From an uncultured Selenomonadales bacterium (GTDB lineage: Bacteria > Bacillota > Negativicutes > Selenomonadales > Selenomonadaceae): a stretch of DNA of 41,495 bases. The position numbers were made by a program, and so were the translations under genes. The stretch's first letter is position 1. The number at the start of each line of letters is the position of its first letter. The notes under the pieces were generated by a model, which saw only the letters and a program-made list of their open reading frames with translations, made no database searches and was not told the origin of the DNA. The stretch spans positions 1 to 41,495 of the forward strand of contig CAMJMR010000023.1 in assembly GCA_946407095.1 (NCBI GenBank), given 5' to 3'. Shown here piece by piece: positions 14,400 to 41,075 of the stretch.

Positions 14400-14625
14400 A
14401 TTGCATTGCAGAGGATGAGGCCGCCCATGGATGGGCGGCCGCCGGCAACAAAAACATGGAAGTTTTTTTGCCGGCACAGTCGGCTTCGGGTAGCGTGGAC
14501 GTTTCGCCAGTGGACGGTATCCGCCCCACGCGTAGTGGCGAGTTTCTTTGCTACTTTCTTTGCTCGGTCAAAGAAAGTAGTTAATCAACTAAAAAGTCAT
14601 CGAAACGCCGAATCGAAGAGTCGCC
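14400..14625 (-). repeat. R2 element, copy a
   Basis: Read on the minus strand it has the family order: conserved hairpin H1 at 14551-14580 (12 perfect pairs), H2 around 14523-14540, variable hairpin H3 at 14441-14475 (arms GCCGGCAA/TTGCCGGC and AAAAAC/GTTTTT), GC palindrome H4 at 14419-14440, then the TTGCA end. A short piece like the other element end (TAGGGTCTATTGGTAA) abuts it at 14377-14392. It fills most of the gap between purM and the next gene. Confidence 0.85.
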
Positions 14626-14675
14626 CGCCGCTACGACGACAATCACCGGCTTGCGCCCGCCGCGCGAAATTTAAA

Positions 14676-14709
14676 GGGACATGGGACAACCTTAAGCCGT
14701 CCCTGTCCC
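14676..14709. repeat. imperfect inverted repeat downstream of the small exported-protein gene
   Basis: GGGACATGGGAC on the left faces GTCCCTGTCCC on the right. It lies just past the stop of the gene at 14717 and may serve as a terminator-like stem or a processing signal, but there is no clear T tract. Confidence 0.5.
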
Positions 14710-14716
14710 CGAAGTC

Positions 14717-15064
14717 TCAATATTCCCTGATAATCGTGTACATAGCCCATTCAATCGGCGTGTCTTGCGGCGTCGCTCGACCTTTAAAGCCCTGCGAGTT
14801 CGTGAAGGTTACGTTTTCGGTGCCGCCGTCAAGCGCGAAAAAAACATATTCCAAAAATTGTGCGCCGCCGTATTGGTCAACCATTTTCAGCGTCGCGGAA
14901 GTGATAACCATGCGATGTTCGTTCGTGCGGCTTATCGTGTCCGTCATGACGAAGCACTCGTAACCCGTCGCGGGGGACATGCCGGCGTAAACTTCGGCAG
15001 CCTCCGCCTTGACGCCCGCGCAGATTATCAAGCCGACAATCGCCGCAAGGAAAAAATTTTTCAT
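14717..15064 (-). CDS. small exported protein of unknown function
   Basis: The 115-residue product has a clear signal peptide (about residues 1-22, charged start, hydrophobic core, AEAAE cleavage region). The mature part of about 90 residues is probably all-beta: YECFVMTDTISRTN, HRMVITSATLKMVDQ, FLEYVFFALDGGTENVTF. It contains one cysteine. I do not recognise a family; similar short exported proteins of unknown role occur in Negativicutes. It starts 12 bases after the purC stop and is probably on the same message, although no link to purine synthesis is apparent. Confidence 0.75.
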   Translation of the reverse strand: MKNFFLAAIVGLIICAGVKAEAAEVYAGMSPATGYECFVMTDTISRTNEHRMVITSATLKMVDQYGGAQFLEYVFFALDGGTENVTFTNSQGFKGRATPQDTPIEWAMYTIIREY

Positions 15065-15076
15065 GGGACGGGCTCC

Positions 15077-15784
15077 TTACAAAGTCAGACGGCGCAACAT
15101 TTCCTGATAAGCCTCTTCGACGCCGCCCAAATCTTGACGGAAGCGGTCTTTGTCGAGCTTTTCGTGCGTGACGATATCCCAGAAGCGGCAGTTATCGGGC
15201 GAAATTTCGTCGGCAAGAATGACTTCGCCGTAGTCGCCGCGCCCGAATTCCAACTTGAAGTCAATCAGGTCGACGTTCTTTGCCTTGAGCAGGTCACGCA
15301 GAATCGTATTGACGGAAAAGGCGATGTGCTCCATTTGATTGAGTTCGTCGATTTTCGCCAAGTCCAAAGCCATAATGTGATAGCGATTGAGCATGGGGTC
15401 GCCGAGTTCGTCGCTCTTGTAGTAGTATTCGACGACGGGGACGGTCAAGGGCGTGCCTTCCTCCTTGCCGAGCCGCTTAACGAGACTGCCCGCGATGATG
15501 TTGCGCACGACGACTTCAAGCTTAATCATGTCCAGCCGCTTGACGAGCATTTCGCGTTCGCCGATTTTTTCGATGAAGTGATTCTTAATGCCGCGATCTT
15601 TGAGCTGCTTGAAAAAGAATTCACTGAGCTTGTTGTTGATGACGCCTTTGCCTTCGATGATGCCGTGTTTCTCGCCGTTGAGCGCGGTGGCGTCGTCCTT
15701 GAAGTACACCAGCAACTCGCCGGGGTTGTCGGTCTCGAAGACGGTTTTCGCCTTGCCCTCGTAGAGAAGATTGCCCTTAATCAT
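15077..15784 (-). CDS. purC: phosphoribosylaminoimidazole-succinocarboxamide synthase (SAICAR synthetase)
   Basis: Joins aspartate to CAIR with ATP. The 235-residue protein is the bacterial short form. It shows LLYEGKAKTVF with the ATP-binding GKAK, FKDDATALNGEK, the VVVRNIIAGSLVKRLG signature, and the second signature LIDFKLEFGRG followed by LADEISPDNCRFWD. It has ATG at 15782-15784 with AGGAGG upstream and belongs to the minus-strand purine cluster with purB and purM. Confidence 0.97.
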   Translation of the reverse strand: MIKGNLLYEGKAKTVFETDNPGELLVYFKDDATALNGEKHGIIEGKGVINNKLSEFFFKQLKDRGIKNHFIEKIGEREMLVKRLDMIKLEVVVRNIIAGSLVKRLGKEEGTPLTVPVVEYYYKSDELGDPMLNRYHIMALDLAKIDELNQMEHIAFSVNTILRDLLKAKNVDLIDFKLEFGRGDYGEVILADEISPDNCRFWDIVTHEKLDKDRFRQDLGGVEEAYQEMLRRLTL

Positions 15785-15803
15785 GATAAAACCTCCTTAA
15801 ACT

Positions 15804-16448
15804 TCACAGTGCCAACGCGTCCAAGTCGTCGGGCACATGGATTTTCCCGCTGAAATATTTTTTGCCTTCCGCCCGATAAAGTTCCTTCCGCGCAGAAAGA
15901 TTTTTGTCCTCGGTGTGATACAGCAACAGATTCTTGACGTGAAGGCTCTCGGCAAGCTCGCAGGCGTCTTTAACCGTCGAATGATTCTTGCTGTAAGGGT
16001 CGAAGATGTCGGCTTGCGAATGAAGACAAAAGGCCTCGTGCAAAAGCCATTCGGAATTTTCGGCGTAAGGCTTTCCGAATTCGTTGCAGGGCTCGTCTCC
16101 GCAACACGTCAACTTTTTTCCGCCGCCGATGTCCATTGAAAAGCCGAATTGCTTTGTCTTGGTCGAATGGATGTCAAAGAAGGTCGTCGCGCGCCCGATA
16201 ACGCTCACAGCCTCTCCGTCGGCAACGGAAACGAAATGAAGTCGGTCGCCGATAAAGCGCGTCTCTTTCGGCTGAAGAAGTTTATCGGCAATGTCCTTAA
16301 GCTGTTGAAGAACTTCGGCGTGCCCGTAAATCTTGGCGGTGCCGGCCGCTTTAAAAGCGGCGGAACAGCGGACGCGCCTCAACGACACGACGATTAAGCC
16401 GACCGCCCGCGCCGATACGAAATGCTTGCCCATTTCTAGCCCGCTCAT
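15804..16448 (-). pseudogene. MBL-fold (RNase Z-like) hydrolase, N-terminally truncated at an R1 repeat
   Basis: From about residue 40 on, the product matches the C-terminal two-thirds of a metallo-beta-lactamase-fold hydrolase: AKIYGHAEVLQQL, RFIGDRLHFV, TTFFDIHSTKTKQFGF, LTCCGDEPC, WLLHEAFC and VKNLLLYHTEDKN, with several metal-ligand candidates. The N-terminal part that should hold the HxHxDH metal motif (about 85 residues, estimated from the family) is missing. In its place the first codons (MGKHFVSARAV onward) are encoded by the 96-bp R1 repeat at 16345-16440. No ribosome site is evident before either ATG (16448 or 16433). It lies between purB and purC; probably a dead gene. Confidence 0.8.
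16345..16440 (-). repeat. R1 element, copy C (96 bp), inside the truncated MBL-fold frame
   Basis: On the minus strand it starts GCTAGAAATGGGC and ends with GCCGCTTTTAAAGCGGCC. Its length is exactly that of copies A and B. It is read in frame by the truncated MBL-fold gene and coincides with the point where homology to that family begins. Confidence 0.85.
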
Positions 16449-16466
16449 CGTTGCGTCGAAATAAAA

Positions 16467-17759
16467 TCACAGTCCGAAGCGAGCGAAAATCATATCGACG
16501 TTGCGAAGGAACCAGTTGTAGTCGAAGCAGGCGGCAATTTCCTCCGCGCCCAGGTATTTCGTGATGTCGGGGTCGGCTGCCACGTTCGTTTTGAAGTCTT
16601 CGCCGTCAAGCCAACGTTTCATTGCGTTGCGTTGCACCCACTTGTAAGCGTCTTCGCGCAGGACGCCCTTGCCCACAATCTCAAGCATGAGCCGCTGACT
16701 GTAAATCAGCCCGCCCGTCCGATTCATATTATGCAACATTGCGTCGGGATAGACAAGCAACTTGTCAACGATATTGGTTATCTTGCGCGTGCAGTAGTCA
16801 ACGTTAATCGTCGAGTCGGGAAGGATGACGCGTTCAACCGAGCTGTGCGAAATGTCGCGTTCGTGCCAAAGGGTGATGTCCTCCATTGCGGCGATTGCGT
16901 TGCCGCGCACGAGCCGAGCCATACCCGCCACGCGTTCGCAGTTTATCGGGTTGCGTTTGTGCGGCATGGCCGACGAGCCCTTTTGCCCCGGCGAAAAATA
17001 TTCTTCAGCCTCGCGAATGTCGGTGCGTTGCAGGTTGCGAATCTCCGTCGCGATTTTCTCAAGCGTGCTTGCCACTATCGCCAAGGTCGTCATGTATTCG
17101 GCGTGACGGTCGCGCTGAATGATTTGCGTCGCCAAACGGACGGGCATCAAGCCGAGCTTTTGGCAAACGAGCTCCTCAATGCGCGGGTCGATGTTTGAAT
17201 ACGTGCCGACGGCTCCGCTAAGCTTGCCGACGCTGACGATTTTCTTTGCGTGTTCGACGCGCTCAATGTCGCGTTCAACCTCCGCGCTCCAAAGCAAAAG
17301 CTTAAGCCCGAACGTCATGGGCTCCGCGTGAATGCCGTGCGTCCTGCCTATGCAAGCCGTATGTTTGAATTCGACGGCGCGGCGGCGCAACACTTCGCGG
17401 AACTTGCGCAGGTCGTCGAGGATAATTTCCGCCGAGCGTTTCATCATCAAGCAAATCGCGGTGTCCTTCACGTCGCTTGAAGTCAAGCCCTTGTGAATGT
17501 ATTTCGAGTCTTCGCCGACGTATTCGCCGACGCAAGTCAGAAAGGCGATGATGTCGTGGTGAGTGACCGATTCGATTTCGTGAATGCGTTCCAGGTTGAA
17601 GTTTGCCTTGGCGCGAATGTTTTGCGCGGCTTCGGCGGGGATTTCGCCGAGTTCTGCCATAGCGTCGCAGGCGGCCAGCTCCACGTCGAGAATCGTCTGC
17701 CATTCGTTTTCAATCGACCAGAGCTTACCCATTTCGGGCAAGGTGTAGCGTTTAATCAT
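16467..17759 (-). CDS. purB: adenylosuccinate lyase
   Basis: Splits fumarate from SAICAR and from adenylosuccinate, so it serves both the IMP pathway and AMP synthesis. The 430-residue protein is typical. It contains THHDIIAFLT with the catalytic base region, GLTSSDVKDTA, GRTHGIHAEPMTFG, and the fumarase/aspartase superfamily signature SSAMPHKRNP. ATG at 17757-17759 (MIKRYTLPEMG) is the normal start. It follows 11 bases after the Pro-rich exported-protein gene, suggesting one transcript with the upstream GT4 genes. Confidence 0.97.
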   Translation of the reverse strand: MIKRYTLPEMGKLWSIENEWQTILDVELAACDAMAELGEIPAEAAQNIRAKANFNLERIHEIESVTHHDIIAFLTCVGEYVGEDSKYIHKGLTSSDVKDTAICLMMKRSAEIILDDLRKFREVLRRRAVEFKHTACIGRTHGIHAEPMTFGLKLLLWSAEVERDIERVEHAKKIVSVGKLSGAVGTYSNIDPRIEELVCQKLGLMPVRLATQIIQRDRHAEYMTTLAIVASTLEKIATEIRNLQRTDIREAEEYFSPGQKGSSAMPHKRNPINCERVAGMARLVRGNAIAAMEDITLWHERDISHSSVERVILPDSTINVDYCTRKITNIVDKLLVYPDAMLHNMNRTGGLIYSQRLMLEIVGKGVLREDAYKWVQRNAMKRWLDGEDFKTNVAADPDITKYLGAEEIAACFDYNWFLRNVDMIFARFGL

Positions 17760-17770
17760 TGCTTAGCCTC

Positions 17771-18727: not shown

Positions 18728-18738
18728 ACATATTCCTC

Positions 18739-20825: not shown

Positions 20826-20843
20826 TGTCATCACCTCGCGCCG

Positions 20844-20872
20844 ATTATAACAGGCAACGCGGCAAGGGGCAA
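20844..20872 (-). promoter_or_regulatory. promoter of the GT4-to-purine operon
   Basis: On the minus strand TTGCCC (20867-20872) and TATAAT (20844-20849) are 17 bases apart. Transcription would start about 10 bases before the ATG at 20825, giving a very short leader. There is no room for a purine riboswitch here. Confidence 0.6.
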
Positions 20873-20925
20873 AGGGCAAGCCGCAAGTTTTTTCGGAGTC
20901 GCTTTGATTCTGCGCGGCTATTTTG

Positions 20926-20954: not shown

Positions 20955-20997
20955 CACAGTGCCGAAAGAGTTAAAGAGTCTTCGACGGGAGAATGTC

Positions 20998-24006: not shown

Positions 24007-24012
24007 ATCGGA

Positions 24013-24262
24013 GGGTGTGTCGATAAGTTGCCGACTTCGATTAATCTTAATTTTTATGATTAGGATCTACTTTCTTTGCTTGCCCAAAGAAAGTAGCAAA
24101 GAAAAGGCCCCTCGCAGGGGCGTTAAGCGAGTGACCGCAACTAACCATGACTGCACAGGAATCGAAACCGCAACCGCTCGTGCCCGCTTTGTTGCATCAC
24201 GCAACAAGCCGCGGGCGGCCGCCCGTCCATGGGCGGCCTCTTTCCTTGCAACGTCACATTGT
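24013..24262 (+). repeat. R2 element, copy c
   Basis: It starts GGGTGTGTCGATAAGTTG and ends near TTGCAACG. H1 is at 24067-24096 (12 pairs, loop CTTGCC), H2 at about 24109-24123 (CCCCTCGCAGGGG), H3 at 24182-24216 (GCCCGC/GCGGGC with TTGTTGC/GCAACAA) and H4 at 24217-24238. It lies between the kinase gene and the fur promoter, beside R1 copy A. Confidence 0.88.
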
Positions 24263-24292: not shown

Positions 24293-24388
24293 GCTAGAAA
24301 TGCGCAGCATTTCGTTCCGGCGCGGGGATAACCCCTCCTTTGTCGAAGAGCACGGCGCGCTATCTGTTCCGCCGCTTTCAAAGCGGCT
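24293..24388 (+). repeat. R1 element, copy A (96 bp)
   Basis: GCTAGAAATGCGCAGCATTT opens the element and GCCGCTTTCAAAGCGGC closes it. An AATGC/GCATT mini-stem near the start is varied in the other copies but still able to pair. It ends four bases before the -35 box of the fur promoter. Confidence 0.88.
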
Positions 24389-24391
24389 TTT

Positions 24392-24917: not shown

Positions 24918-26660
24918 TTGGGCATCAAGATAAAAAACCTAACTCTCCTCGGCAAAAACGATTTCTCAAAGGTCGTCGGCGACGTGCTGCGCGCGCTGAA
25001 GGTTTCGACGACGGACGGCGCGGCTGACTTCGACGGCGTGGAAATTCTTAATGAAGTCGTCGGCAAGCGGGTTATCACGCGGCTGAAAGTCACGACGGAC
25101 GGTTCGGCGAACTATCTGCGCAAAACTTCAACCTTGCGCGCCGATGAACGCTTCGGCTCTGAAGTCAATCGCCTCGTCAAAAAAAATCTGTACACGCTGC
25201 TGATTGACGAATGCGGGCTTGAGCCTGTGCCTTACGGGATTCTTCACGGCGTGCGCCCGACGAAAATCATTCAGCGGTGGATAAGCGAGGGCTTCGGCGT
25301 CACCAGCCAAGGCATAATCGACCGCGACAGGATTTTCCGCCGCATTTGCGACGACTTCCTTACCACGCGCGACAAGGCGTCTCTTTTGGCGGAGGTTGCG
25401 ATTAGTCAGCTGCCGATTATCCGCGCAAGCGACGCGCAGACCGTCAGCGTTTACGTCGGCATTCCCTTCTGCAAAACGCGCTGCCTGTATTGTTCCTTCC
25501 CGTCGAACGTCCTGCCCGCCGAGGATAAGATTGTCGAGTTCATGACGGCTTTGACGCGCGATATCGAGGCGGCGGCGGGCGCGATTAATCGCTACGGCTT
25601 CAAGGTGCAGACGATTTACGTGGGCGGCGGCACGCCTACCGCTTTGCCCGAAAAATTTTTCGTCGAGCTGTTGGCCAAGGTTCGCGACAACTTTGCCTGC
25701 GCGGGCGTCGAAGAGTTCACGGTCGAATGCGGGCGACCCGACACGATAACCGCCGAGAAAATCGCCGCCATGAAAAATTTCGGCGTCACGCGAGTCAGTG
25801 TCAATCCCCAATCGATGCACCAACGGACGCTTGACAAAATCGGGCGTCAACACACCGTCGAGGATGTCACGCGGGCTTTCGACGCGCTTAGGGCGGCGAG
25901 CGACTTCAAAATCAACATGGATTTGATAGCGGGCTTGCCGGGCGAACAGCTTGCCGACTTCGCGGAGAGTTTGGACAAAATCCTTGCGCTTGCGCCCGAT
26001 GACGTGACGATTCACGCCTTGGCGATTAAACGCGGCTCAAAGATTCAAATGCGGCTTGCCGACAAGTTGAACAGCTTGGAGGATTTCGATTTGCCGAGTG
26101 ACGACGAAGTTCGCAAGATGGCCGAGCACGCCGAGAAAATTTTGCGCGCGGAAAAATTTTCGCCGTACTATCTTTATCGGCAAGGCTACAGCAGCGGTCA
26201 GATTGAAAATGTCGGCTGGTGTCGCAAAGGCGCGGAAGGCATTTACAACGTTCAGATAATGGGCGAGCGTCAAACGATATTGGGCGTGGGAGCGGCGGCG
26301 TCGACGAAGGTGCCCGACCCCGTCGACAAAAAGATTCAGACGGCGTTCAACGCGAAGGACTTGGCAACTTATCTGCGAGACGTTGAAAAATACATAGCGC
26401 GGCGCGAGGAAGTTTTGGCGATGGTTTACACGCCCGCCACGGCTGAAGTCGTCGAGCCCGCCACGGCTGAAGTCGTCGAGCCCGCCACGGCTGAAACCGT
26501 CGAGCCCGCCACGATTGAAACCGTCGAGCCCGCCACGGCTGAAACCGTCGAGCCCGCCACGATTGAAACCGTCGAGCCCGTCAAGACCGCTAAGCGCAAA
26601 CACGGCAAGGCGAAGGCTGCTAAGCCCGTCAAAGCGACCGCAGACGAAGGAGGAGATTAA
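24918..26660 (+). CDS. hemZ: oxygen-independent coproporphyrinogen III oxidase-like radical SAM protein HemZ
   Basis: Probable haem-pathway radical SAM enzyme. The 580-residue protein has the HemZ-specific N-terminal region (about 1-170), then the radical SAM core with the 4Fe-4S motif CKTRCLYC (C-x3-C-x2-C), YVGGGTPTAL, EFTVECGRPDTI, RVSVNPQSM and MDLIAGLPGE, and the HemN-like C-terminal part with YLYRQGYSSGQIENVGW. After about residue 500 comes an unusual tail of six 8-residue repeats (EPATAETV type) and a Lys/Ala-rich end. The TTG start at 24918 is preceded by GGGGAGG. Family members can be coproporphyrinogen dehydrogenases or haem chaperone-like; HemZ of Bacillus is the closest known type. 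Confidence 0.92.
   Translation: MGIKIKNLTLLGKNDFSKVVGDVLRALKVSTTDGAADFDGVEILNEVVGKRVITRLKVTTDGSANYLRKTSTLRADERFGSEVNRLVKKNLYTLLIDECGLEPVPYGILHGVRPTKIIQRWISEGFGVTSQGIIDRDRIFRRICDDFLTTRDKASLLAEVAISQLPIIRASDAQTVSVYVGIPFCKTRCLYCSFPSNVLPAEDKIVEFMTALTRDIEAAAGAINRYGFKVQTIYVGGGTPTALPEKFFVELLAKVRDNFACAGVEEFTVECGRPDTITAEKIAAMKNFGVTRVSVNPQSMHQRTLDKIGRQHTVEDVTRAFDALRAASDFKINMDLIAGLPGEQLADFAESLDKILALAPDDVTIHALAIKRGSKIQMRLADKLNSLEDFDLPSDDEVRKMAEHAEKILRAEKFSPYYLYRQGYSSGQIENVGWCRKGAEGIYNVQIMGERQTILGVGAAASTKVPDPVDKKIQTAFNAKDLATYLRDVEKYIARREEVLAMVYTPATAEVVEPATAEVVEPATAETVEPATIETVEPATAETVEPATIETVEPVKTAKRKHGKAKAAKPVKATADEGGD
26433..26576 (+). repeat. 24-bp tandem repeat, six units, in the hemZ 3' end
   Basis: Six in-frame units of 24 bases start CCCGCCACG and end GTCGAG. 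Two forms alternate at the middle (GCTGAA or ATTGAA; GTC or ACC), so units 3-4 and 5-6 form a repeated pair. Each unit encodes eight residues of the PATAE(V/T)VE type. Confidence 0.95.
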
Positions 26661-27533: not shown

Positions 27534-28307
27534 ATGAGGCAGTATATCGTTGACGCGTTCACTGAAAAAATTTTCGGCGGCAATCCTGCGGCGGTTTGCG
27601 TGCTTGAGGACTTTCCGCCCGAAACTTTAATGCAAAACATTGCCCGCGAAAATAATTTGTCGGAGACGGCATTTGTTGCCAAAAGTGGTGACAGTTATCG
27701 GCTGAGGTGGTTTACGCCCGCCGCCGAGGTAGATTTTTGCGGACACGCCACGCTTGCCACGGCTTACGTTATCTTGACGCTGCTTGAAAAGGATTTGCCC
27801 GCCGTCGCCTTCGAGACGTTGAGCGGCAGGTTTACGGTCGCGCGCAAGGGCAAAATGTTCGAGATGAACTTTCCCGCCTACAAGCCGACAAAAATCCCCG
27901 TGACCGCCGCGATGAGTGACGCCGTCGGCGCGAAGATTTTGGAGGCTTACCTTGCCCGCGATTTGCTTATGGTTTTGGAGTCGGCGGCGGCTGTCGAAAA
28001 CCTTGCGCCCGATTTGAACAAACTTGCCAAACTGGACGGGCTGACTCAAGCTGTGACGGCTGTCGATAAAAATTTCGATTGCGTGTCGCGAGTGTTCGCG
28101 CCGAAGATAAGCGTGCCCGAAGACCCCGTGACGGGTTCGACGCATTGCCTTATCGCGCCGTATTGGTCGGAGCGGCTGGGCAAAACCAAACTTATCGCCC
28201 GTCAAGCGTCGGCGCGCGGCGGAGTGTTGCATTGCGAGGTTGCGGGCGCACGCGTCAAAATTTCGGGCAACGCGGTACTCTTCGCCGTCGCCGATTTGAC
28301 AACGTAA
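27534..28307 (+). CDS. PhzF-family isomerase/epimerase
   Basis: PhzF-like enzyme of 257 residues with the diaminopimelate-epimerase fold; exact substrate unknown. The N-terminal signature VDAFTEKIFGGNPAAVCVL is followed by NNLSETAF with the likely catalytic Glu near 45, WFTPAAEVDFCGHATLATAY, and in the second lobe EDPVTGSTHCLIAPYW and GGVLHCEV. The protein is slightly short compared with PhzF proper (about 280 or more). ATG 27534 follows GGAGGCGG and lies 12 bases after the PARG-like gene, so it is the last gene of the fur-hemZ operon. An R2 element begins right after its stop. Confidence 0.93.
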   Translation: MRQYIVDAFTEKIFGGNPAAVCVLEDFPPETLMQNIARENNLSETAFVAKSGDSYRLRWFTPAAEVDFCGHATLATAYVILTLLEKDLPAVAFETLSGRFTVARKGKMFEMNFPAYKPTKIPVTAAMSDAVGAKILEAYLARDLLMVLESAAAVENLAPDLNKLAKLDGLTQAVTAVDKNFDCVSRVFAPKISVPEDPVTGSTHCLIAPYWSERLGKTKLIARQASARGGVLHCEVAGARVKISGNAVLFAVADLTT

Positions 28308-28310
28308 CGA

Positions 28311-28558
28311 AAACGTTGCAAAGGATGAAGCCGCCCATGGATGGGCGGCGCCGCGACTTCGACGCAGGATGCGTCGATAGCGGCACGAGCGGCCTCGGGT
28401 TGCGCGGACGTTGCGGCGGTGGTCAGTATCCGCCCCACGCGCAGTGGCGAGTTTCTTTGCTACTTTCTTTGCTCGGTCAAAGAAAGTAGATTCTAATCAT
28501 TAAAGTTATCGAAACGCCGAGTCGCCGCCGTCAACTTAATTTACCAACACACCCTAGT
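28311..28558 (-). repeat. R2 element, copy b
   Basis: On the minus strand it opens CTAGGGTGTGTTGGTAA and closes TTGCAACGTT. H1 is at 28460-28489 (12 perfect pairs, loop identical to copy a), H2 around 28432-28449, H3 at 28350-28384 (GCCGC/GCGGC with CGACGCA/TGCGTCG) and H4 at 28330-28349. It fills the whole gap between the PhzF gene and the hisS ribosome site. Confidence 0.88.
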
Positions 28559-29846: not shown

Positions 29847-30401
29847 TTGCTTAAGGAAGTTTTGATAGTCGAAGGCAAAAACGACGCGGCCGCCGTCAAA
29901 AAAGCAGTCGAGGCTGACTGCATAACGACAGGCGGCTTTCATTTTACGCGCAGGACGATTGAAAACATTGCGGCGGCTTACGCGCGGCGCGGGATAATCA
30001 TTTTGACTGACCCCGATTCGGCGGGCGAGAACATCCGAAATTTTTTGTCGAAGAAGTTTCCGCAAGCCAAGCACGCCTACATTCCGCGCGACGAGGCTAC
30101 GGCCAATGACGACGTGGGCATTGAGCAGGCTTCGCCCGAATCCATTCGCAAGGCGTTGAGCAAAGTGCGCACGCTTGAAATTAATCCGCGCGAAGAGTTC
30201 ACGGCGGCTGAAATGGTTGCGCTGAAACTTTCGGGCGGCGCGGACAGTTCCCGTCTTCGCGACAAGGTCGGCGCGGCATTGGGCATCGGCTACGGCAACG
30301 TCAAAACTTTCGTCAAGCGGCTCAACAACTACGGCGTCACCCGCGAGGAATTCATGGAGGCTGTTGCTTTGGAAGCTGTCGGTTCCGACTCGGCGATTTG
30401 A
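29847..30401 (+). CDS. rnmV: ribonuclease M5
   Basis: Cuts the 5S rRNA precursor to its mature ends in Gram-positive-type bacteria. The 184-residue protein has the Toprim domain with VLIVEGKNDAAAV (catalytic Glu), IIILTDPDSAGE (DxD) and HAYIPRDEA, then the C-terminal substrate-binding part (SSRLRDKVGAALGIGYGN). TTG 29847 follows GAGGAGG. In most Firmicutes rnmV is followed directly by rsmA; here an 813-bp IS and an R2 remnant separate them. The stop codon abuts the R2 sequence. Confidence 0.95.
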   Translation: MLKEVLIVEGKNDAAAVKKAVEADCITTGGFHFTRRTIENIAAAYARRGIIILTDPDSAGENIRNFLSKKFPQAKHAYIPRDEATANDDVGIEQASPESIRKALSKVRTLEINPREEFTAAEMVALKLSGGADSSRLRDKVGAALGIGYGNVKTFVKRLNNYGVTREEFMEAVALEAVGSDSAI

Positions 30402-30416
30402 TAGCTTTAATGTTTA

Positions 30417-31229
30417 GAATCAGTGTTCATAAACGTTTAAGCAAAGTGTGAATATGAGAAATCTTAATCAAGGTCTCGGCAGAAGCAACCGTCAGCTCGT
30501 AGTCTTTGCTAAGTCGCCGAGAGTGATTGAGCCAAGAAAAAGTCCGCTCCACTATCCACCGTTTTGGCAATACTTGCCAGCCGTGCGGCTTTAACTTCTT
30601 ACTTATCTCTACTTGCAAACCAAAATATTTGTGAGCTTCGTAAACGAAAGTCCCACGGTAACCGCCATCTCCGCATATCTTTTTCAACGTCGGATAGGCG
30701 AAAGTCGCCAAACCCGCTACCCAATATCCCATTTTTGTGTCGTGTAAATTCGCTTTGTGAATCACGACCGATAAAAGACAACCAGTCTCGTCGGTGACGA
30801 TCTGACGTTTTACTCCTTTCGTTTTTTTCCCATGTCAAAAGCCTTTTGTTCGACGGCACCGGTCGTTTTCACGCTTTGGGAATCGATTAAAGCTTGGGTT
30901 GGATTTTCGCTCAAGCCTGCTCTTTGGCGCGTCAGCTTTACGAGGTGTTCGAGGATTTTGTCCCACAAACCGTTGAGCCGAGCGCGGCGATAAAAGCTGT
31001 GCACCGTGAAGACCGGCGGGAAATCGTGCGGCAAATTACGCCACTGACAGCCCGTTTTCACCAGATACAACACCGCATTGACCAATTCGCGCTTATCCCA
31101 TTTGCGTTTTCGCATGTTGACGAACAAAGGCGAGATAACTTCCCATTGCTCGTCCGTTAAGTCTGTTTCGTATTTTTTTCTCATAGTACACTTACTATAT
31201 CACTTTTTACCATTTATGAACACCTGTTC
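30417..31229 (-). mobile_element. IS5-family insertion sequence, copy 1 (complete, 813 bp)
   Basis: The ends are imperfect inverted repeats: GAATCAGTGTTCATAAA at 30417 and, on the other strand from 31229, GAACAGGTGTTCATAAA (14 of 17 match). TTA flanks both sides (30414-30416 and 31230-31232), consistent with a 3-base target duplication; identity in fact extends to TTAGAATC on both sides because the left end resembles the target. It carries one transposase gene in two frames. A second copy starts at 41091. Confidence 0.88.
30427..31184 (-). CDS. IS5-family transposase made by -1 frameshifting (orfA 30810-31184, orfB 30427-30827)
   Basis: DDE transposase of about 250 residues. OrfA (124 residues) has the DUF4096-like N-terminal region LTDEQWEVISPLF, GCQWRNLPHDFPP and the first Asp in ALIDSQSVKTTGA. 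OrfB, in the -1 frame, has KRQIVTDETGCLL, the second Asp in CGDGGYRG, and the glutamate in RWIVERTFSWLNHSRRLSKDYE. The frames meet at an A7 run (30822-30828, read as GGA AAA AAA), with the orfA stop at 30810, as in the IS427-type members of the family. The stop of orfB lies in the terminal inverted repeat. Both reading frames look intact, so the copy may be active. Confidence 0.92.
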
Positions 31230-31391
31230 TTAGAATCTACTTTCTTTCAGCGAAGAAAGCAAGTAGCAAAGAAAGCAGCATCTCGGTTTCAATTCGCGGA
31301 GTGCGCGCATGTCCGCGCAAGGCGCCCGTCCATGCGCGCCCTCGTCCCCTGCAACGTTTTCCTTATCAATAGATTTTGGAGGCTTTGAACA

Positions 31392-32239: not shown

Positions 32240-35200
32240 TTGGCGAAACGGAAGGAAGGAACAAGGAACAAGGAACAAGGAACAAGGGACAAGGTTAAAA
32301 TTTCGGCGTGCTACATGGTTAGGGACGCCGCGCAGGATTTACGCCGCTCGTTGGAAAGTTTGAAGGGTCACGTCGACGAAATTATCGTCGTCGATACCGG
32401 CTCGACCGATTCAACCGTCGCCGTCGCAAAAAAGTTCGGCGCGAAGATTTTCAGCACGCCGTGGCAAGATGACTTCTCTGCGCCGCGCAACATTGCCTTG
32501 CGAGCCGCCAAGGGCGATTGGATTCTGTTCCTGGACGCCGACGAATTTTTTATCGACGACACCGCCCAAGACCTTCAAGCCGCCGTCAAACGCGCGCAAA
32601 GTCACGGCGTCCAAGGGCTCTTCGTCAAGCGAATCAACGTCGACGCGAACGACGGCAACAAGGTTATCAGCGTCGATTATTCGTTGCGGCTGTTCGAAAA
32701 CGCGGCTGGGCTTCACTACGTCGGCAAGGTTCACGCAGACGTTTGCCTGGGCAAAGACATGCTGACTAACGTCGCCGCCTTGCCCGCCGATATGCTGACG
32801 CTTTGGCACACGGGCTATTCAAAGTCGATTATCAAAGCCAAGCTTGAGCGCAACCTGAAACTTTTGCTTGAGGAACTGCGCGAGACCGACAAGCCGCAAC
32901 GCGTCTACGCCTACCTTGCCGACTGCTATTACGGTTTGGGCGATTGGACTGCCGCCGAGAAATACGCCCGCTTGCACGTCGACGCCATCCCCGGCTTTTC
33001 GACACGCCCGCTGAAAATTTTGATTGACATCCTGGAAAAAGATTCTTCGCGCGCCGACGAGTGCTTTGAGCTTTATCGGCGAGCGGTCAAGCTTTATCCC
33101 AAGGTGCCCGAATTTTCCGCCAAGCTTGCCGTGGCGTGGGCTGAACGCGGCGATTATCGGGCGGCGATAGCGGAAATGTGTTGGGCTCTGGTCAAGGCGG
33201 CGGCTTACGTCGACGAGTTGGCGAATTCCGACTTCGACGAGGCGGTTGCCAAGCGACTCATAAACGAATGGCTTTTGGAGGGCATGGGCTTATCCGAGCT
33301 AACTGACGCGCTGATTCACGCCGTGGAAGTTTCGGGCGATAAGGAAAAGATTTTGCTGACCGCCAAGAAAATTTTCGCGCTCAAGCCCGCCGAGCCCGCA
33401 CCGCTTGAACGAGTGGCGTCCGTCTACGTCGATTTGAAAATGATTGACGCGGCGGAGGAAGTCGTCGCTTACATGGAAGAACATTTTCCGCCGTCGCCCT
33501 ACCGTTTGCTTTTGCGAGGCAGAATTTTGTTCGCCCAAGACAATTGTCTTGACTGCATAGCGGTCGCCGAACGCGCTTTGACGCTTGAAGGAGCCGACAC
33601 CGTCACGACGATGATTATCCACAATCTTTTGGGGCAAGCCTGTCGCGGCATTGGAGACGCTCAAAGCGCAGTCAATCACTACGAGCGCAATGCCAAGCTT
33701 GACCTTTCCGCGCTGAAGGATTCGCCGCAATTCGCGCAGGCGCAACGCATTCGTCGAGAGGAGTACAGCAATTATCTTTTCAACCTGCACAACGTCAACG
33801 TCACGCGCGAAAAGCTTTTCGAGGAGACGCGCGGCTTTAACCGACTGCTTGAGCACATTCCGCGCCGCACGCACGACAAGGCAACTCATTCCCGTCATGA
33901 AAAGATTCGCGTGGGCTACATATCGCCCGACATTCGTTTTCACGTCGTGGCGTTTTTCAGCGCGCATTTCTTCAAAAGCTGCGACAAGACGCGCTTTGAG
34001 GTCTTCATCTACGCCAACAACGTCAATGACGGCATAACCGCGCAATTCGCCGCCGCTGTCGACGGCTTCCGCAACATTTCGGGCATCGACGCAAGGGACG
34101 TTGCCGCGCAGATTTTTCAAGACGAGATTGACATTTTGGTTGACTTGGCTGGGCATTCGGCGAGCAATTCGCTGGAGGTCATGGCTTACAAGCCCGCGCC
34201 CGTTCAGATTAGCGGCATTGGCTATTTCGATTCGACGGGCGTCGAGGCGATTGATTATTTCATTGCCGACAAGTTCACCGACCCCGAAGGCTTGAACGAA
34301 AACTTTTTCACCGAAAAAATTTTGCGGCTTCAACACAGTCACTTTTGCTACGTTTGGCACGAGTTGCAGTCTGCACCGACGCCCGCGCCCTGCACCAAGG
34401 CGGGTTACGTGACGTTCGCGAGCTTCAACAACTTCGCCAAGGTTACCGACGAGATGTTGAGGCTTTGGGCTGAAATTTTGGACGGCGTCCCCGATTCGCG
34501 ACTTTACCTTAAGAATGCCGCCTTCAGGGAAAATTGCGGGCTTGCGCTTGCCAAGGAGCGAATGACGGCGGCGGGCATCGACATCGAGCGCGTGACGTTC
34601 GAGGCGTTCGCGACCGACTACGTCAAGTGCTACGAGCGGGCTGACATCGCGCTGGACACCTTCCCTTATCCCGGCGGCGGCACCACTTGCGACGCGCTGT
34701 ATATGGGCGTTCCCGTCATCACTTTGGCGGGCGAGCGGCATAATTCGCGCTTCGGCTATTCCTTGCTTGCCAACATGGGTCTTGAGGAATTGTGCGCGTT
34801 CAGCGAGGCGGAATACGTTCAAAAGGCGATTGCGCTTGCCCAAGACCGTGAACGGCTTCGCGAATATCATTTGACGATTCGGCGGCGGATGGAGCTTTCG
34901 CCCGTCATGAACGACGCGATTTATATGGGCGAGCTTGAGCAGGCTTACGAGAAAATTTTTGGCGCGTGGCTTGCAGATGAGCCGTTGCCCGACTTTCCGC
35001 AGGAGCCCGCGCCCGTCACGAGCGAACTTGCCGAGGAATATTATCGGCGGGCGTTGAGCTACCTTCCTTTGGAGGGCGAACACGGCGAGAGCCGCTTTAA
35101 TCGCGTTGACTTCAAGCGGACGCTGTATTTTGCCGAGCTTGCCGCGCAGATTAGGCAAGACGCGAAACTTTTGCTGACGATAGCTGACCGCCGCTACATG

Positions 35201-36607: not shown

Positions 36608-37722
36608 AGACTTTGATTAACGGGCGGCTGATTGTTCCCGACGAGTGCGGCGACTTTAAAATCTGCGCGGGAGCCATCAACTTCGACGAGAAGATAATTT
36701 CAATCGGCGAGCCTGCGGACGGCGCGGAGGTTATCGACGCGGCGGGAGCTTACGTTTCGCCGGGATTCATCAACGTTCACTTTCACGGGGCGGCGGGCGT
36801 CGACGCAATGGACGAAGACCTTGATGCTCTGCAACGACTTGCCGACTTCCTGCCTTCGACGGGCGTCACGAGCTTTTTGCCCACGACTATGACTTTGCCG
36901 ATTGAAAAAATTCACGGCGCGCTTGAGCGAATCCGCGCAGGGAAAAATTTTAATCACGGCGCAAAAATTTTGGGCGCACACGTCGAAAGCCCGTTCATCA
37001 GCAAAAAATATTGCGGCGCGCAGGATACGGCTTACATCATCCCCGCCGACTTCGCGCTGATTGAAAACTTCGCCGACGTGATAAAAATCATCACGGTTGC
37101 GCCCGAAGAGACGGGGCTTGGCTTTATCGAGCGTTGCTTAGCGGTGGGCATTATCGTTTCAATCGGACACAGCGCGGCGACTTACGAGGAGGCAATGGCG
37201 GCGATTGAGCGCGGGGCGAGCCGCATAACGCACCTGTTCAACGCGCAAAGTCCTTTCCACCACCGCAAGGCGGGCGTCGTGGGGGCGGCGTTCGATTCGG
37301 ACGCCAACGTCGAGCTGATAGCCGACAACGTTCATGTCAGCCCCGTCGCGCAGAGGATTGTTGCGAAAGTCAAGCCGCGCCGTCAAATCATTCTGATAAC
37401 CGATTCAATGCGAGCTTGCGGTTTAGGGGACGGCATCAGCGAACTTGGCGGGCAGAAAGTTTTCGTCAAGGGTAGCCTTGCCACGCTGGAGGACGGGACG
37501 ATTGCGGGAAGCGTCGCCAAAATGAATGACGTCCTGCGAAATTTTTGTGCGAACACGCGGCTTGACGTGGCAGCGGGCGTCGAGTTGGCAACTAAAAACC
37601 CCGCCGTCGAGCTGAACATTTACGACGAGCGGGGCAGTCTTGAGGTCGGCAAGGCGGCTGATATCACCGTCTTCGACGACGCCTTCAACATAAAAAAAAC
37701 TTTTGTCAACGGTTCGCTTTGA
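36604..37722 (+). CDS. nagA: N-acetylglucosamine-6-phosphate deacetylase
   Basis: Removes acetate from GlcNAc-6-phosphate, feeding glucosamine-6-phosphate to UDP-GlcNAc synthesis or glycolysis. The 372-residue amidohydrolase has the HFHG metal-site region (INVHFHGAAGVD), a modified HVESPF in place of the usual HLEGPF with the metal-binding Glu kept, SIGHSAATYEEA, THLFNAQSPFHHR and the catalytic Asp in LITDSMRACGLGDG. The ATG overlaps the stop of the giant glycosyltransferase gene (ATGA), so the two are translationally coupled, hinting at amino-sugar chemistry for both. An R2 element follows. Confidence 0.94.
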   Translation: MKTLINGRLIVPDECGDFKICAGAINFDEKIISIGEPADGAEVIDAAGAYVSPGFINVHFHGAAGVDAMDEDLDALQRLADFLPSTGVTSFLPTTMTLPIEKIHGALERIRAGKNFNHGAKILGAHVESPFISKKYCGAQDTAYIIPADFALIENFADVIKIITVAPEETGLGFIERCLAVGIIVSIGHSAATYEEAMAAIERGASRITHLFNAQSPFHHRKAGVVGAAFDSDANVELIADNVHVSPVAQRIVAKVKPRRQIILITDSMRACGLGDGISELGGQKVFVKGSLATLEDGTIAGSVAKMNDVLRNFCANTRLDVAAGVELATKNPAVELNIYDERGSLEVGKAADITVFDDAFNIKKTFVNGSL

Positions 37723-37739
37723 GGGCGTTGATTCGGCGC

Positions 37740-37974
37740 GTAATATTTGGCCGCCCATGGACGGGCGGCCGCCGCAACAGAAAGCCGGACGCTTTCTTTG
37801 CGGCACAGTCGGCTTCGGGCAGCGCGGACACTTCGTAGACGTTTGCTTAACGCCCCTGCGAGGGGTCTTTTCTTTTTGCTACTTTTTCTTTGGACACGCA
37901 AAGAAAAAGTAGATTCTAAACATTAAATTTATCAAAACGCCGAATCGAAGCCGACAACTTACCAACAGACCCTA
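37740..37974 (-). repeat. R2 element, copy d
   Basis: On the minus strand it opens TAGGGTCTGTTGGTAAGTTG. H1 is at 37879-37912 with 14 pairs, longer than other copies on both arms at once. H2 is CCCCTGCGAGGGG at about 37853-37865, H3 is at 37771-37804 (GCCGCAA/TTGCGGC with AGAAAGC/GCTTTCT), and H4 at 37749-37770. It lies between convergent nagA and the kinase gene; the TAG stop of the latter is part of the element end. Confidence 0.88.
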
Positions 37975-38622
37975 AATCAAAAGTTCGTCGACGAGCGTAA
38001 CAATTTCTTCGTGAATGTCCATCGTGCTCCGAGCGAAACTGCCCGCCGCGCAGTGGACGACGCGCCAGCCGTATTTGTGGGCAAGTTCCTTGTACATGTT
38101 GTAGGTTTTGTTTTGAAAGGCGGCATCTGCTTCGTGAATGTCTTCACGCCCGCGCTCCCGACGCAGGACGGCGCAAATTTCGGGCGGCATGTCCAAGAAA
38201 ATCGTCAAGTTCGGTCGCGGCAAGCCGTAATGCTTGTACTCCAAATCGTCGAGCCACGCCAAAAATTTTATGCGTTCCGTTTCGTTATCGAGTTTCGCGG
38301 CTTGATAGGCCATGTTCGAGCCGACATAGCGGTCGCTCAAGACGAGCCCGCCGCGCTGATAAAAATCTTTCCAGTCGAAAAAGTTAGCGAATCTGTCGAC
38401 GGCGTAGAACGTCGCCGCCGCGTAGGGGTTGACAGCCTCCGCCGTGCCGCCGAAGTCGCCGCGCAGATACATCTTAATAAGCGCGGAAGACTCCGACTCG
38501 TAATTGGGAAAGCTCACGCGCCTCACATTGACGCCGACGTCGCGCAGGCGTTCAAAGAGTTTGCGTGTCTGCGTTGCTTTGCCTGAGCCGTCCGAGCCTT
38601 CTATTACGACCAACTTCCCCAT
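37972..38622 (-). CDS. thymidylate kinase-like nucleotide kinase
   Basis: Probably phosphorylates dTMP or another deoxynucleoside monophosphate. The 216-residue P-loop kinase has VIEGSDGSGKATQT (Walker A of the TMPK type), RVSFPNYESES with the DR/FP-like substrate region, AVDRFANF and LSDRYVGSNMAYQAAK (DRY motif), and a lid region with RRERGREDIHE. It is a divergent Firmicute form, so a second, standard tmk may exist elsewhere. ATG at 38620-38622 is chosen because GGGGGTG is just upstream; a longer frame to 38748 runs into an R1 repeat and has no ribosome site. The stop is contributed by the adjoining R2 element end. Confidence 0.9.
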   Translation of the reverse strand: MGKLVVIEGSDGSGKATQTRKLFERLRDVGVNVRRVSFPNYESESSALIKMYLRGDFGGTAEAVNPYAAATFYAVDRFANFFDWKDFYQRGGLVLSDRYVGSNMAYQAAKLDNETERIKFLAWLDDLEYKHYGLPRPNLTIFLDMPPEICAVLRRERGREDIHEADAAFQNKTYNMYKELAHKYGWRVVHCAAGSFARSTMDIHEEIVTLVDELLI

Positions 38623-38696
38623 ACCGTACACCCCCTGAAAATTTTTGCTATAAAAGTAAATGTGCTTATTAGACAGGCCGCGCATATTTCCTGCAA

Positions 38697-38775
38697 CCCG
38701 CTTTAAAAGCGGGGGAACAGCAAGCGCGCCGTGCCGCTCAGGATTCAAAGGTTTGTCGCCGCGCCGAAACGCAAC
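38697..38775 (-). repeat. R1 element, copy D (partial)
   Basis: It keeps the CCGCTTTTAAAGCGG-type end, a CTGTTCC block and the TTTCGGCGCGGCGA middle, but lacks the GCTAG end present in copies A-C. It sits upstream of the thymidylate-kinase-like gene and next to the terminator of the following gene. Confidence 0.7.
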
Positions 38776-38815
38776 TTAAAAACGGACGCGCCTTTTGGGC
38801 ACGCCCGCTTTTTTT
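38776..38815 (-). terminator. rho-independent terminator of the two exported-protein genes
   Basis: On the minus strand the stem CGGGCGTGCC (38807-38798) pairs with GGCGCGTCCG (38792-38783) using two G-U wobbles, followed by TTTTTAAG. It lies 19 bases past the stop at 38834. Confidence 0.85.
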
Positions 38816-38833
38816 ATCGGAGCCGTCAACGAA

Positions 38834-39670
38834 TTACTTCAAGAAGACGACCGCGCAGTTTTCGAGGAATTTGTCAATTTGGTTGGCGGAAAGGATTTTA
38901 TCGGCATCCGCCACGCTGACGACGGGATTGGCGTTGATATCGTCGAGACGAGTCGCTTTGACGACGATAGGATTGTTACCAGCGCGGTCGCGGCTGATTT
39001 GGTCGTAAGCGTCGCCCGCGTAGCTTGCCATGCCGTTGACGATGATTTTGTCGTAGTCAAGATTTTTGTGGCCGTAAATTGCTTGTCCGTTGGCATTTTT
39101 AATGACGGGGCTCATAACGGGGTTGAGGTTCATGCCGCGGCAGTCGATAACCAAGCCCGTGTAATTGGCACCCGACTTTGCAACTTTGGTGGTCGGCGCG
39201 GGGAAGGCAACTTTGGGCTCGTCCTTGAAGGGCAGATAAGCCACTTCAGCCACGGAGCCTTTGCCGCCGTAAAGATTCATTTCCATGATGACTGTGCAGG
39301 TGTCGTCGGTCGGGTCGTATTGCGGAGAGCCAATTTCCTTGGCGTTGCGGATAATTCCTTGCGCCGAAGTCTTGACTTGGTAGGTGTCAATCTCGTAATC
39401 GGTCATGGACGCGTTGGTTTCGACTTGAACGCCGATATACTCAACCAATTTGGCTTGAGCGTCCATCCTTGCCGCCTTCGACGCCGTCAAGCGGAATTTG
39501 CCGGGATTGTCTTTGTACGCGCCCTTGCCGACGCCTTGACCCGTCACACGCACGACGCCCGCCATAAAGTCAACTTCGACACCGTCAAGGTCTTGCGCGA
39601 ACGTCACCGCCAACATCGTCAGCATAACCGCTGCCGCCGCCAAGCACGTCGCCAATCTTTTGAAACTCAC
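38834..39670 (-). CDS. exported protein with an LPP20-like domain
   Basis: A 278-residue protein with a clear signal peptide (about 1-25, ending TFAQD). The following region (GVVRVTGQGVGKG, ARMDAQAKLVEYIGVQVETNASM) has the strand then Ala-rich helix pattern of LPP20/FlgT-N-type domains of exported Gram-negative proteins. The C-terminal half (VIDCRGMNLNPVMSPVIKNANG, VVSVADADKIL) looks like a second alpha/beta domain. No lipobox cysteine is seen, so it is probably soluble in the periplasm. It follows 82 bases after a gene whose product has a similar first domain. Assignment of the domain is tentative. Confidence 0.75.
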   Translation of the reverse strand: MSFKRLATCLAAAAVMLTMLAVTFAQDLDGVEVDFMAGVVRVTGQGVGKGAYKDNPGKFRLTASKAARMDAQAKLVEYIGVQVETNASMTDYEIDTYQVKTSAQGIIRNAKEIGSPQYDPTDDTCTVIMEMNLYGGKGSVAEVAYLPFKDEPKVAFPAPTTKVAKSGANYTGLVIDCRGMNLNPVMSPVIKNANGQAIYGHKNLDYDKIIVNGMASYAGDAYDQISRDRAGNNPIVVKATRLDDINANPVVSVADADKILSANQIDKFLENCAVVFLK

Positions 39671-39752
39671 GTTAAACGCCTCCTCCTGATGACAGAAAGT
39701 GATTAATCGAACGTTTGAATTTTAATTGAACTTCAAAACGGTGTCAACGCGT

Positions 39753-40826
39753 TCAGCCGTCGTAGCCGAGTGCCTTTGCCTTGTTGAAGTCTTCCTGCGC
39801 GGCGGCGAAGTTGCCCGTCAGCTGATAGCACGTGCCGCGTATCATATACGACAAGTCGAGCTTCGGGTCGAGTTCGATAGCCTTGTTTGCGTCTTGGAAG
39901 GCCGCTTCGATATCGCGAGCCATAAGGTACATGGCGGCGCGGTTGTTGTAGGCAAGGGCAAGCGTCGGGTCGCATTCGATGGCACGGTTGATGTCCTCCA
40001 TTGCCTGTTCGTAGTTGTTGAGGTTGCCGAAGGCCGCGCCGCGATTGTTGTACGCCATTGCGTAATTCGGGTCGAGCTTTATGGCTTGCGTGCAGTCGGC
40101 AACGGTCTTGTCGAAATTCTTCAGCACGCCGTAAGCACCGCCGCGCCCGCAATAAGCCCGCGCCGTCGGCTGAAGGGCAATCGATTCGTCGCAGAGTTTA
40201 ATCGCCTCGGTGTAGTTGCGGTTGTAGAAATTTTTCTGCGCCTCCTCCAGCTTCCTGTTCGCCAAGAAGGTATCGTCCTCGGCTGCTATTTCGCGGCTTA
40301 CGGCTTCACGTTCGCGCTTGCCGCTAAGTTTGCCGTCGACCGTCAGCCGTTTGATTTGCTCTTTGAGTTTGTTAATCGTCGCGTCCTGTTCGTCGACCGC
40401 TTGACGCAATTCCTTATTCTGAATGACGATCATCGAACGTTCCCGCGCAGATTTTTCAAGCCACTTGCCCACGTCGTCGGTCTCGATATTCGCCTTGACC
40501 GTCGCGCGAATGACGAAGCCGTTGACGTCGGGCAGGCTGTCCGTGGTGTACTTGACATCGACGACGCTCATAATCCCGCACGTGATTGAAATGACTTCGT
40601 CGTCGACCAGCTCGAAGTTGTTCGTCTTTGAGTAGCCGCTTATGAAGACGCCCGCCTGCTCTTGAGCATTGCGCTCCGCCTTTTGACGAGCGCGCTGCTT
40701 GGCTATGTCAATCGTTTCGAATTCGCTCATGACGTATTCGTCGGTGCCCGTGTAGGTTTTGACTTCGGCGGAGGCATTCGACGCGATAAGCAAGCCCGTC
40801 GCCAGCGCGATTAAAAATTTTTTCAT
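39753..40826 (-). CDS. exported TPR-repeat protein with an LPP20-like N-terminal domain
   Basis: The 357 residues comprise a signal peptide (about 1-20, ASNASAEV), an LPP20/FlgT-N-like domain (about 22-125, with AKQRARQKAERNAQEQAGVFI), a coiled coil (about 130-170, NKELRQAVDEQDATINKLKEQ), and four or five tetratricopeptide repeats (about 195-355; AYNNRGAAFGNLNNYEQA is one). Such proteins act as scaffolds in the periplasm. It likely forms a unit with the gene at 38834. ATG at 40824-40826 follows AAGGAGG. An R2 element lies immediately upstream, so its promoter must lie in or beyond that element. Confidence 0.85.
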   Translation of the reverse strand: MKKFLIALATGLLIASNASAEVKTYTGTDEYVMSEFETIDIAKQRARQKAERNAQEQAGVFISGYSKTNNFELVDDEVISITCGIMSVVDVKYTTDSLPDVNGFVIRATVKANIETDDVGKWLEKSARERSMIVIQNKELRQAVDEQDATINKLKEQIKRLTVDGKLSGKREREAVSREIAAEDDTFLANRKLEEAQKNFYNRNYTEAIKLCDESIALQPTARAYCGRGGAYGVLKNFDKTVADCTQAIKLDPNYAMAYNNRGAAFGNLNNYEQAMEDINRAIECDPTLALAYNNRAAMYLMARDIEAAFQDANKAIELDPKLDLSYMIRGTCYQLTGNFAAAQEDFNKAKALGYDG

Positions 40827-40838
40827 GACGTCGCCTCC

Positions 40839-41075
40839 TTAGGGGTTGTCGGCAAATGGGATTTGTCGGCTTCGATTCGTCGTATCGATTGAATTTTATT
40901 TTGATTAACTACTTTCTTTTGCGCACCCAAAAGAAAGTAGCAAAGAAAAAGGTGCCTCGCAGGGGCGAAGGGTCGTGACCCGCGCTGTCCGATATTTTCA
41001 GCGTGCTCGCGCCGACGGTTTTTGCGTCACGCAAAAGCGTCGGCGACGGCCGCCCGTCCTTGGGCGGCCTTTAAA
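40839..41075 (+). repeat. R2 element, copy e
   Basis: It starts near TTAGGGGTTGTCGGC. H1 is at 40909-40940 with 13 pairs (one longer than copies a-c, changed on both arms). H2 is imperfect (GCCTCGCAGGGGC, about 40953-40965), H3 is at 41011-41044 (GCCGACG/CGTCGGC with TTTTGCG/CGCAAAA) and H4 at 41048-41069. The second IS copy begins about 20 bases beyond. Confidence 0.88.

Follow-up and report, generated by a model that had tools for sequence, protein, structure and literature searches.

RNA pseudoknots of the H type with an A-rich third loop combine two stems, S1 and S2, with that loop, L3, and the same topology is found in the core of a repeated DNA element that we describe here from a 41,495-nt contig (CAMJMR010000023.1, assembly GCA_946407095.1) of an uncultured Selenomonadales bacterium of the family Selenomonadaceae. 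This whole contig is called the window below, and coordinates given without a locus or contig name are positions in it; L-numbers denote loci and G-numbers genomes, the genome of the window being G000. The closest described DNA structures are the class II purine-motif intrastrand triplex motifs (BoxC, PIT and TMECO being names for the same motif), already reported by Holder et al. (2015; PMC4666352). There, purine-motif triplexes are said to be unable to form in RNA and PIT elements to block DNA polymerase in vitro; the PIT/BoxC work consulted does not settle if intrastrand triplexes of DNA arise in bacterial cells and have any role. We propose, with a probability of roughly 70%, that the elements of the window are IS5-type miniature inverted-repeat transposable elements (MITEs) carrying a widespread DNA module that would fold into a knotted triplex.

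Copies were detected, and their structure tested, with patterns and alignment tests. The exact form of the first hairpin, H1, occurs 39 times in the genome of the window (reversed-pattern control, 0), and a relaxed core with a CAAR tail gives 53 + 48 = 101 matches, among which a few double counts are possible; a lack of further copies, which the preliminary description had named as an outcome that would speak against it, is thus the opposite of what is found. The A-rich segment following the 39 exact hairpins is intact in 33 and changed in one (L040), and in the other five (L018, L033, L038, L041 and L051) CAAAGA runs into a CCCGCTT repeat. A structure alignment was built from 28 of 33 candidate own-genome copies, L041, L046, L051, L195 and L196 being excluded as divergent or long. 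In this alignment, S1, S2 and the downstream hairpins H3 and H4 are paired in 95.4% of cells, compared to 78.8% after shuffling, and both partners have changed in 16 of 31 pairs, neither value being reached by any of 500 shuffles; the count of additional pair types stands out less, as 51 of 500 shuffles reach it. All eight pairs of H3 show changes on both sides, and sliding the 3′ partners by 1–3 columns leaves pairing at only 38–57%. Hairpin H2, counted apart with its three pairs, reaches 93.8% paired cells, and strong covariation is seen at one of these pairs (GC 9, AU 8, UA 6); H2 is absent from an unaided RNAalifold prediction. The earlier view that the conserved object is structure is thus borne out, and in a sharper form. 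Chance origin of the patterns is ruled out by reversed-pattern controls, which gave 0 in every pattern search.

H1 and the short CAAAGAAA that follows it had been listed as separate parts of the element. Both are present, but covariation supports reading them as a single module, in which the H1 loop would pair with the bases following CAAAGAAA to give a pseudoknot, with the H1 stem as S1, the loop–tail helix as S2 and CAAAGAAA as L3. Loop and tail change together both within the genome (ACCGAG/CTCG, ACTGGC/GCCA, TCTGGG/CCCA and TGCGGA/CCGC) and in other genomes (CTTCGT/GACGA, CTGCTG/GCAGC and CTGGTG/GCACC). The mean Watson–Crick run is 3.51 over 100 distinct loop/tail pairs, compared to 1.68 for shuffled pairs (standard deviation 0.10; maximum 2.08 in 2000 shuffles), and 3.37 compared to 1.67 when one pair is taken per distinct loop (n = 63); since the pooled cores are related, the shuffles overstate independence, which the one-per-loop test lessens and does not remove. 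In the own-genome alignment, three of the four S2 pairs show changes on both sides and 85.3% of S2 cells are paired, as expected of an H-type pseudoknot. For 15 BoxC-like motifs from three other genomes, the loop–tail run (1.40) is no higher than that of shuffled pairs (1.37), and these motifs thus lack the knot.

L3 is also tied to S1. In asymmetric stems, of which there are eight types, L3 is the mirror of the 3′ purine arm in 56 of 56 cases and the direct repeat in none (for example, stem/L3 of TTTTCTTT/AAAAGAAA, TTTCTTTT/AAAGAAAA, TTTCCTT/AAAGGAA and TTTCTCTT/AAAGAGAA); two G-less stems (TTTTTTT) in one genome have an L3 that is likewise G-less, and symmetric TTTCTTT stems keep the mirror L3 intact in 203 of 216. 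The pool of 280 hairpins read for L3 comprises 223 locus hairpins and 57 distinct strings hand-picked from sense-strand rows of pattern searches, one of which demanded CAAR after the stem and left the G position free. An L3 that follows the mirror and never the direct repeat is what a purine-motif intrastrand triple helix requires, and the core has the class II order of pyrimidine arm, purine arm and mirror purine segment on one strand. The L3 pattern fits an antiparallel purine motif that would place A on A-T and G on G-C, as in class II intrastrand triplexes. Strand switching between two direct copies of CAAAGAAA was considered and is ruled out, because asymmetric stems show the mirror and a mirror copy cannot substitute for a stem arm.

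These rules could in principle reflect descent, the core being a conserved relic without a function of its own that is copied along with MITEs and other repeats. The core does travel inside MITEs within this genus, and the number of matches per genome is erratic, from 0 to 195 (90 + 105 in G029). However, S2 and L3 change along with their partners across lineages having different flanks, and one contig (L121) holds two length variants of the core, each with its own matching L3, such that we consider descent an improbable explanation.

The mechanism we propose is as follows. The pyrimidine and purine arms would form stem S1, the loop of which pairs with the bases that directly follow the A-rich L3, as the covariation shows, to give the pseudoknot. 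L3 would then run alongside S1 as the third strand, made of purines and antiparallel to the stem's own purine strand, with A on T-A and G on C-G, a geometry that we infer from the mirror rule. Whenever the strand carrying it is unpaired, as at a replication fork, the module may fold into a knotted intrastrand triplex that hinders polymerases, and in this genus the MITE would spread it as passenger cargo. We see the odds that the module acts as folded single-stranded DNA as evenly balanced, and we favour selfish persistence where insertion does little harm. A further-reaching reading, which we put forward tentatively, is that the cross-phylum module adopts, inside living cells, the form of an intrastrand triple helix with a pseudoknot and that the fold itself is useful (through fork stalling, binding of host proteins or aiding spread), so that unrelated mobile or palindromic elements carry it; under this reading, the retention of both triples and knot by compensating changes points to selection on folded single-stranded DNA. 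Natural length and sequence variants that keep the mirror rule and the knot provide evolutionary evidence for the fold as well as ready natural mutants, and a doubted DNA structure becomes testable through these repeats.

Several observations weigh against this proposal. The innermost S2 pair is broken in 11 of the 28 aligned copies, three U-G cells occur in S2 of the same alignment, and 10 of 106 distinct loop/tail pairs form fewer than three of the four pairs. The mirror L3 is missing in 13 of the 216 symmetric TTTCTTT stems, and L3 is unreadable in 4 of the 280 pooled hairpins. T is rare in L3 (among the listed deviating rows that keep the downstream S2 strand, only L134 has it), whereas in DNA, T on A-T pairs is compatible with the purine motif. 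Holder et al. (PMC4666352) report no stable in vivo triplex for the G-rich relative, cite earlier work without an in vivo effect of PIT elements, and name G-G-C triplets as drivers of purine-motif stability, from which it follows that an A-rich triplex should be weaker. Furthermore, the evidence on both the mobility of the MITE and the fold of the core is from sequence.

The core might instead be an RNA element, i.e., an H-type pseudoknot with the A-rich L3 in the minor groove, serving stability, pausing or binding in transcripts. Besides the shared S1/S2/L3 topology, such a role would suit an L3 that is almost always A or G, the occasional U-G in S2, and the preference for convergent gaps between genes, which fits 3′ untranslated regions: outside Selenomonadales, 27 of 68 gaps with a core are convergent and 5 divergent, compared to 61 and 62 of 378 coreless gaps (convergent in 16 of 158 when only coreless gaps of ≥100 nt are taken). 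Tandem gaps, however, show no strand bias relative to genes, the core running with the gene direction in 30 and against it in 26 (10 and 10 in Selenomonadales), and the gap context speaks more for harmless placement than for an RNA role of the sense strand. In addition, G-T is nearly absent from S1 and S2 in the cross-lineage sets: 119 cores with an exact L3 contain 17 stem changes, of which 12 are Watson–Crick (six of these being length variants), five are mismatches and none is G-T, and single non-Watson–Crick positions of S2 are G-T in 2 of 34. S1 of the own-genome alignment has one U-G cell. This scarcity leans towards the DNA level, without being proof of it. For minor-groove contacts, we know of no rule that demands a strict mirror in which G follows C-G pairs, and no Rfam family is matched, the window giving 0 at gathering thresholds and six loci at E ≤ 1 giving only RsmV (E = 1); such a match had been named beforehand as grounds for abandoning the initial reading. 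Taking these points into account, we regard an RNA role as rather unlikely; of the structured-RNA half of the preliminary description, the conserved structure is supported and the RNA role is less favoured.

The carrier of the core is a MITE of about 244–295 bp with inverted ends TAGGGNNTGTTGGTAA. At 11 loci with facing end pairs 240–291 bp apart, read with a pattern that did not require TA, TA flanks both sides in 10, with TA/TC at L196. The element of L186 is inserted in a hairpin repeat, the uninserted form of which, with a single TA, is seen in L019, L028 and L033; the element of L033 adjoins another core, and a similar uninserted form is seen in L179. The empty-site pattern did demand TA at both ends, and the evidence for TA consists of the 11-locus reading together with the empty sites. 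The genome also contains an apparently complete insertion sequence (IS) of 857 bp (G000:C6, about 1939–2795) with matching ends, the right one deviating by one base, and a 254-aa frame sharing 95% identity with L199 across 216 residues; L199 matches DUF4096 (IS4/5) and DDE_Tnp_1, L204 matches DUF4096, and the IS5-type assignment of the own-genome frame rests on kinship with L199. Several contigs end a few dozen bases within these same ends, which leads us to suspect a longer multicopy element, and the IS end (≤3 mismatches) is held by 24 of 60 genomes of the genus, own included. Shared ends, TA duplication, empty sites and a partner IS in the same genome together identify the elements as MITEs of an IS5-type IS. 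They are thus, with strong support, non-autonomous and predicted to depend for their movement on an IS5-type (DUF4096/DDE) transposase that acts in trans, recognises TAGGGNNTGTTGGTAA and inserts at TA. The hairpin repeat GAGCCCTTTTGCTTAGCCAACGAAAGGGC (L019, L028, L033 and L186) has the MITE target at its central TA, and an IS end lies at the same TA in L040 and L179.

The preliminary description had left the choice between MITE-like and REPIN-like mobile elements, and had proposed looking for a transposase gene with the same ends. Such a gene is present in the G000:C6 IS with its 254-aa frame, and the MITE half gains support from all four lines of evidence above. Hairpins, intergenic position, high copy number and, outside Selenomonadales, inward-facing core pairs (“+-” in 30 of the 68 gaps with a core, “+--” in 1 and “-+” in 0) would also suit an element of the REPIN type, with mobility provided by a RAYT (HUH) transposase that works on single-stranded hairpins. 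In the genus of the window, however, the ends are those of a DDE-transposase IS, with terminal inverted repeats and a TA duplication, which makes this origin highly improbable; RAYT genes were not searched for.

All six copies first noted in the window are found again, with both orientations represented:

14377..14661, minus strand, MITE copy A; right terminal repeat at 14377–14392, left terminal repeat not identifiable and outer limit approximate
14539..14580, minus strand, core of copy A; H1 stem at 14551–14580, then L3 CAAAGAAA, then S2 strand CTCG
24011..24254, plus strand, MITE copy B; left terminal repeat at 24011–24026 degenerate (3 mismatches), right end not identifiable
24067..24109, plus strand, core of copy B; H1 stem at 24067–24096, L3, S2 formed by loop CTTGCC with GGC
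24214..24238, plus strand, palindrome H4 of copy B, from the inverted-repeat list and helix 5 of the alignment
28292..28556, minus strand, MITE copy C; left terminal repeat at 28541–28556 exact, right end eroded and limit approximate
28448..28489, minus strand, core of copy C; H1 stem at 28460–28489, L3 CAAAGAAA, S2 CTCG
30368..31378, plus strand, MITE copy D, split by an IS; left end eroded, H1 at 31237–31266 imperfect, right end TTATCAATAGATTTTG at 31363–31378
30422..31229, minus strand, IS within copy D with a DUF4096 transposase frame; limits approximate
37740..37974, minus strand, MITE copy E; left terminal repeat at 37959–37974 exact, right end not identifiable
37865..37912, minus strand, core of copy E; longer H1 TTTTTCTTT at 37879–37912 with equally lengthened L3 CAAAAAGAAA
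40840..41085, plus strand, MITE copy F; left terminal repeat at 40840–40855 degenerate (3 mismatches), right end not identifiable, second IS next
40909..40955, plus strand, core of copy F; H1 TTTCTTTT at 40909–40940, L3 AAAGAAAA, S2 formed by GCACC with GGTGC

Terminal-repeat matches (≤3 mismatches) lie at 14377, 24011, 28541, 37959 and 40840, compared to a chance expectation of 0.31, and two of these five carry 3 mismatches. The TTGCAACGTT-like stretch first taken as an element end is not one, the right end being the left one in inverted form (TTACCAATAGACCCTA at 14377–14392), which is eroded or absent in several window copies. The splitting of the copy near 30402 by an IS is confirmed, and a second copy of this IS at 41090–41495, just after copy F, is 97% identical over 406 bases. 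The order of parts, described as fixed, mostly holds, but the H2–H3 linker varies among copies and 5 of 39 exact hairpins run into another repeat; likewise, the elements lie nearly always between genes, but among distinct Selenomonadales cores, 3 of 36 overlap a frame called by a home-made simple codon model (7 of 147 outside Selenomonadales). The five hairpins just mentioned are truncated cores fused to a CCCGCTTT...AAGCGGGGGAACAGC segment, which is related to a second repeat family:

12950–13032, 16339–16378, 24305–24389 and 38695–38734, second repeat family, CAGCATTTCGTTCCGGCGCGG ... GTTCCGCCGCTTTAAAGCGGC

Tandem AGGAACAAGGAACAAG-like repeats occur in both orientations at 4757–4792 and 32243–32300, and similar CCTTGTTCC-type stretches come after some MITE copies (e.g., L037 and L043). 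A 24-base tandem repeat, GCCCGCCACGGCTGAAGTCGTCGA, lies at 26408–26623 within the open frame 24918–26660.

Beyond this genome, a scan of GTDB genomes for the module gave at least 118 stretches, from which no frequencies can be derived. The matches listed are mostly from Burkholderiales, with others from Neisseriales, Xanthomonadales, Nevskiales, Pasteurellaceae, Desulfuromonadia and Selenomonadaceae, as well as Chitinophaga, Segetibacter and single metagenome-assembled genomes (MAGs) called Moraniibacteriota and Clostridiales; the recurrence in unrelated genomes mentioned in the preliminary description is thus real. A tail-pattern search found a match in 23 of 25 genomes chosen from those loci, both misses being pattern losses, as the required closing non-G base loses copies (G004 and G085 score 0 though their own loci, L085 and L054, hold the core). 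The relaxed core is present in 43 of 60 genomes of the window's genus, which appears to include Quinella sp. 1Q7 (G003), with the same kinds of places as in the genus member G069. The exact hairpin is found in the own genome, in 10 of 24 genus mates and in 0 of 16 other genomes of the class, and among 299 genomes sampled from the phylum, only the own one has the strict pattern, the 298 others having none. The picture by phylum is not a clean one: in the Clostridiales MAG (L099), hairpin and AAAGAAA are accompanied by a poor S2, and L067, L072, L123, L131 and others have deviating cores; MAG contigs could be misbinned. Similar sequence is seen in 13 plasmid records, including Ilyobacter and Pasteurella, and neither phage records nor E. 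coli genomes gave a hit (E ≤ 0.01) to a 47-base Neisseriales-type query. The hairpin was also noted in seven IMG/VR viral contigs (L170–L176). That one strict module is shared by Burkholderiales, Neisseriales, Desulfuromonadia, Bacteroidota and a single Selenomonadaceae genus calls for a common reason. Eight Burkholderiales pairs, 404–534 bp in length, look by eye like the arms of large imperfect palindromes. Cores of this appearance lie at:

L053 5537–6350, L062, L063, L071, L081, L106, L124 and L128, palindrome-like Burkholderiales cores with further inner inverted repeats, e.g., GTGGCAAACTGTGTGTAGG

Searches of Rfam and of the literature found no earlier description of an A-rich knotted family, and papers retrieved with 12- and 13-base strings did not, judged by title and opening of the abstract, deal with such a repeat. 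Other papers deal with triplexes, for example one on Acinetobacter (PMC5472653). The main text of PMC4666352 contains neither “pseudoknot”, words beginning with AAAG, Burkholderia nor Selenomonas, and its database may list such sequences.

In the comparison with TMECO/BoxC as described in that paper, the core shares a pyrimidine arm, a purine arm and a mirror purine third strand in the same order, as well as intergenic position, lack of strand bias, occasional inverted pairs and copy numbers that are very uneven among related genomes. TMECO is, however, G/C-rich (CCCTCNCCC...), whereas the core is A-rich, has an additional loop–tail pseudoknot and does not fit the TMECO/BoxC consensus CCCTCNCCCN3-6GGGNGAGGGN3GGGNGAGGG; furthermore, the core rides a MITE in the genome of the window, while PMC4666352 did not find TMECO associated with mobile elements. 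In contrast to RNA H-type pseudoknots, L3 of the core obeys a base-by-base mirror rule on S1, and G-U pairs are few. The carrier, in turn, shares with IS5-type MITEs its short length, the lack of genes, terminal repeats common to an IS of the same genome and the TA duplication, and differs from them in its cargo, namely the core with its knot and two hairpins that covary, H3 and H4; no IS database being searched, it was not matched to a named MITE or IS. Thus, the carrier is, with good support, an ordinary kind of mobile element, and its cargo is best described as a knotted, A-rich variant of a known, functionally obscure DNA structure, for which the evolutionary evidence is unusually direct.

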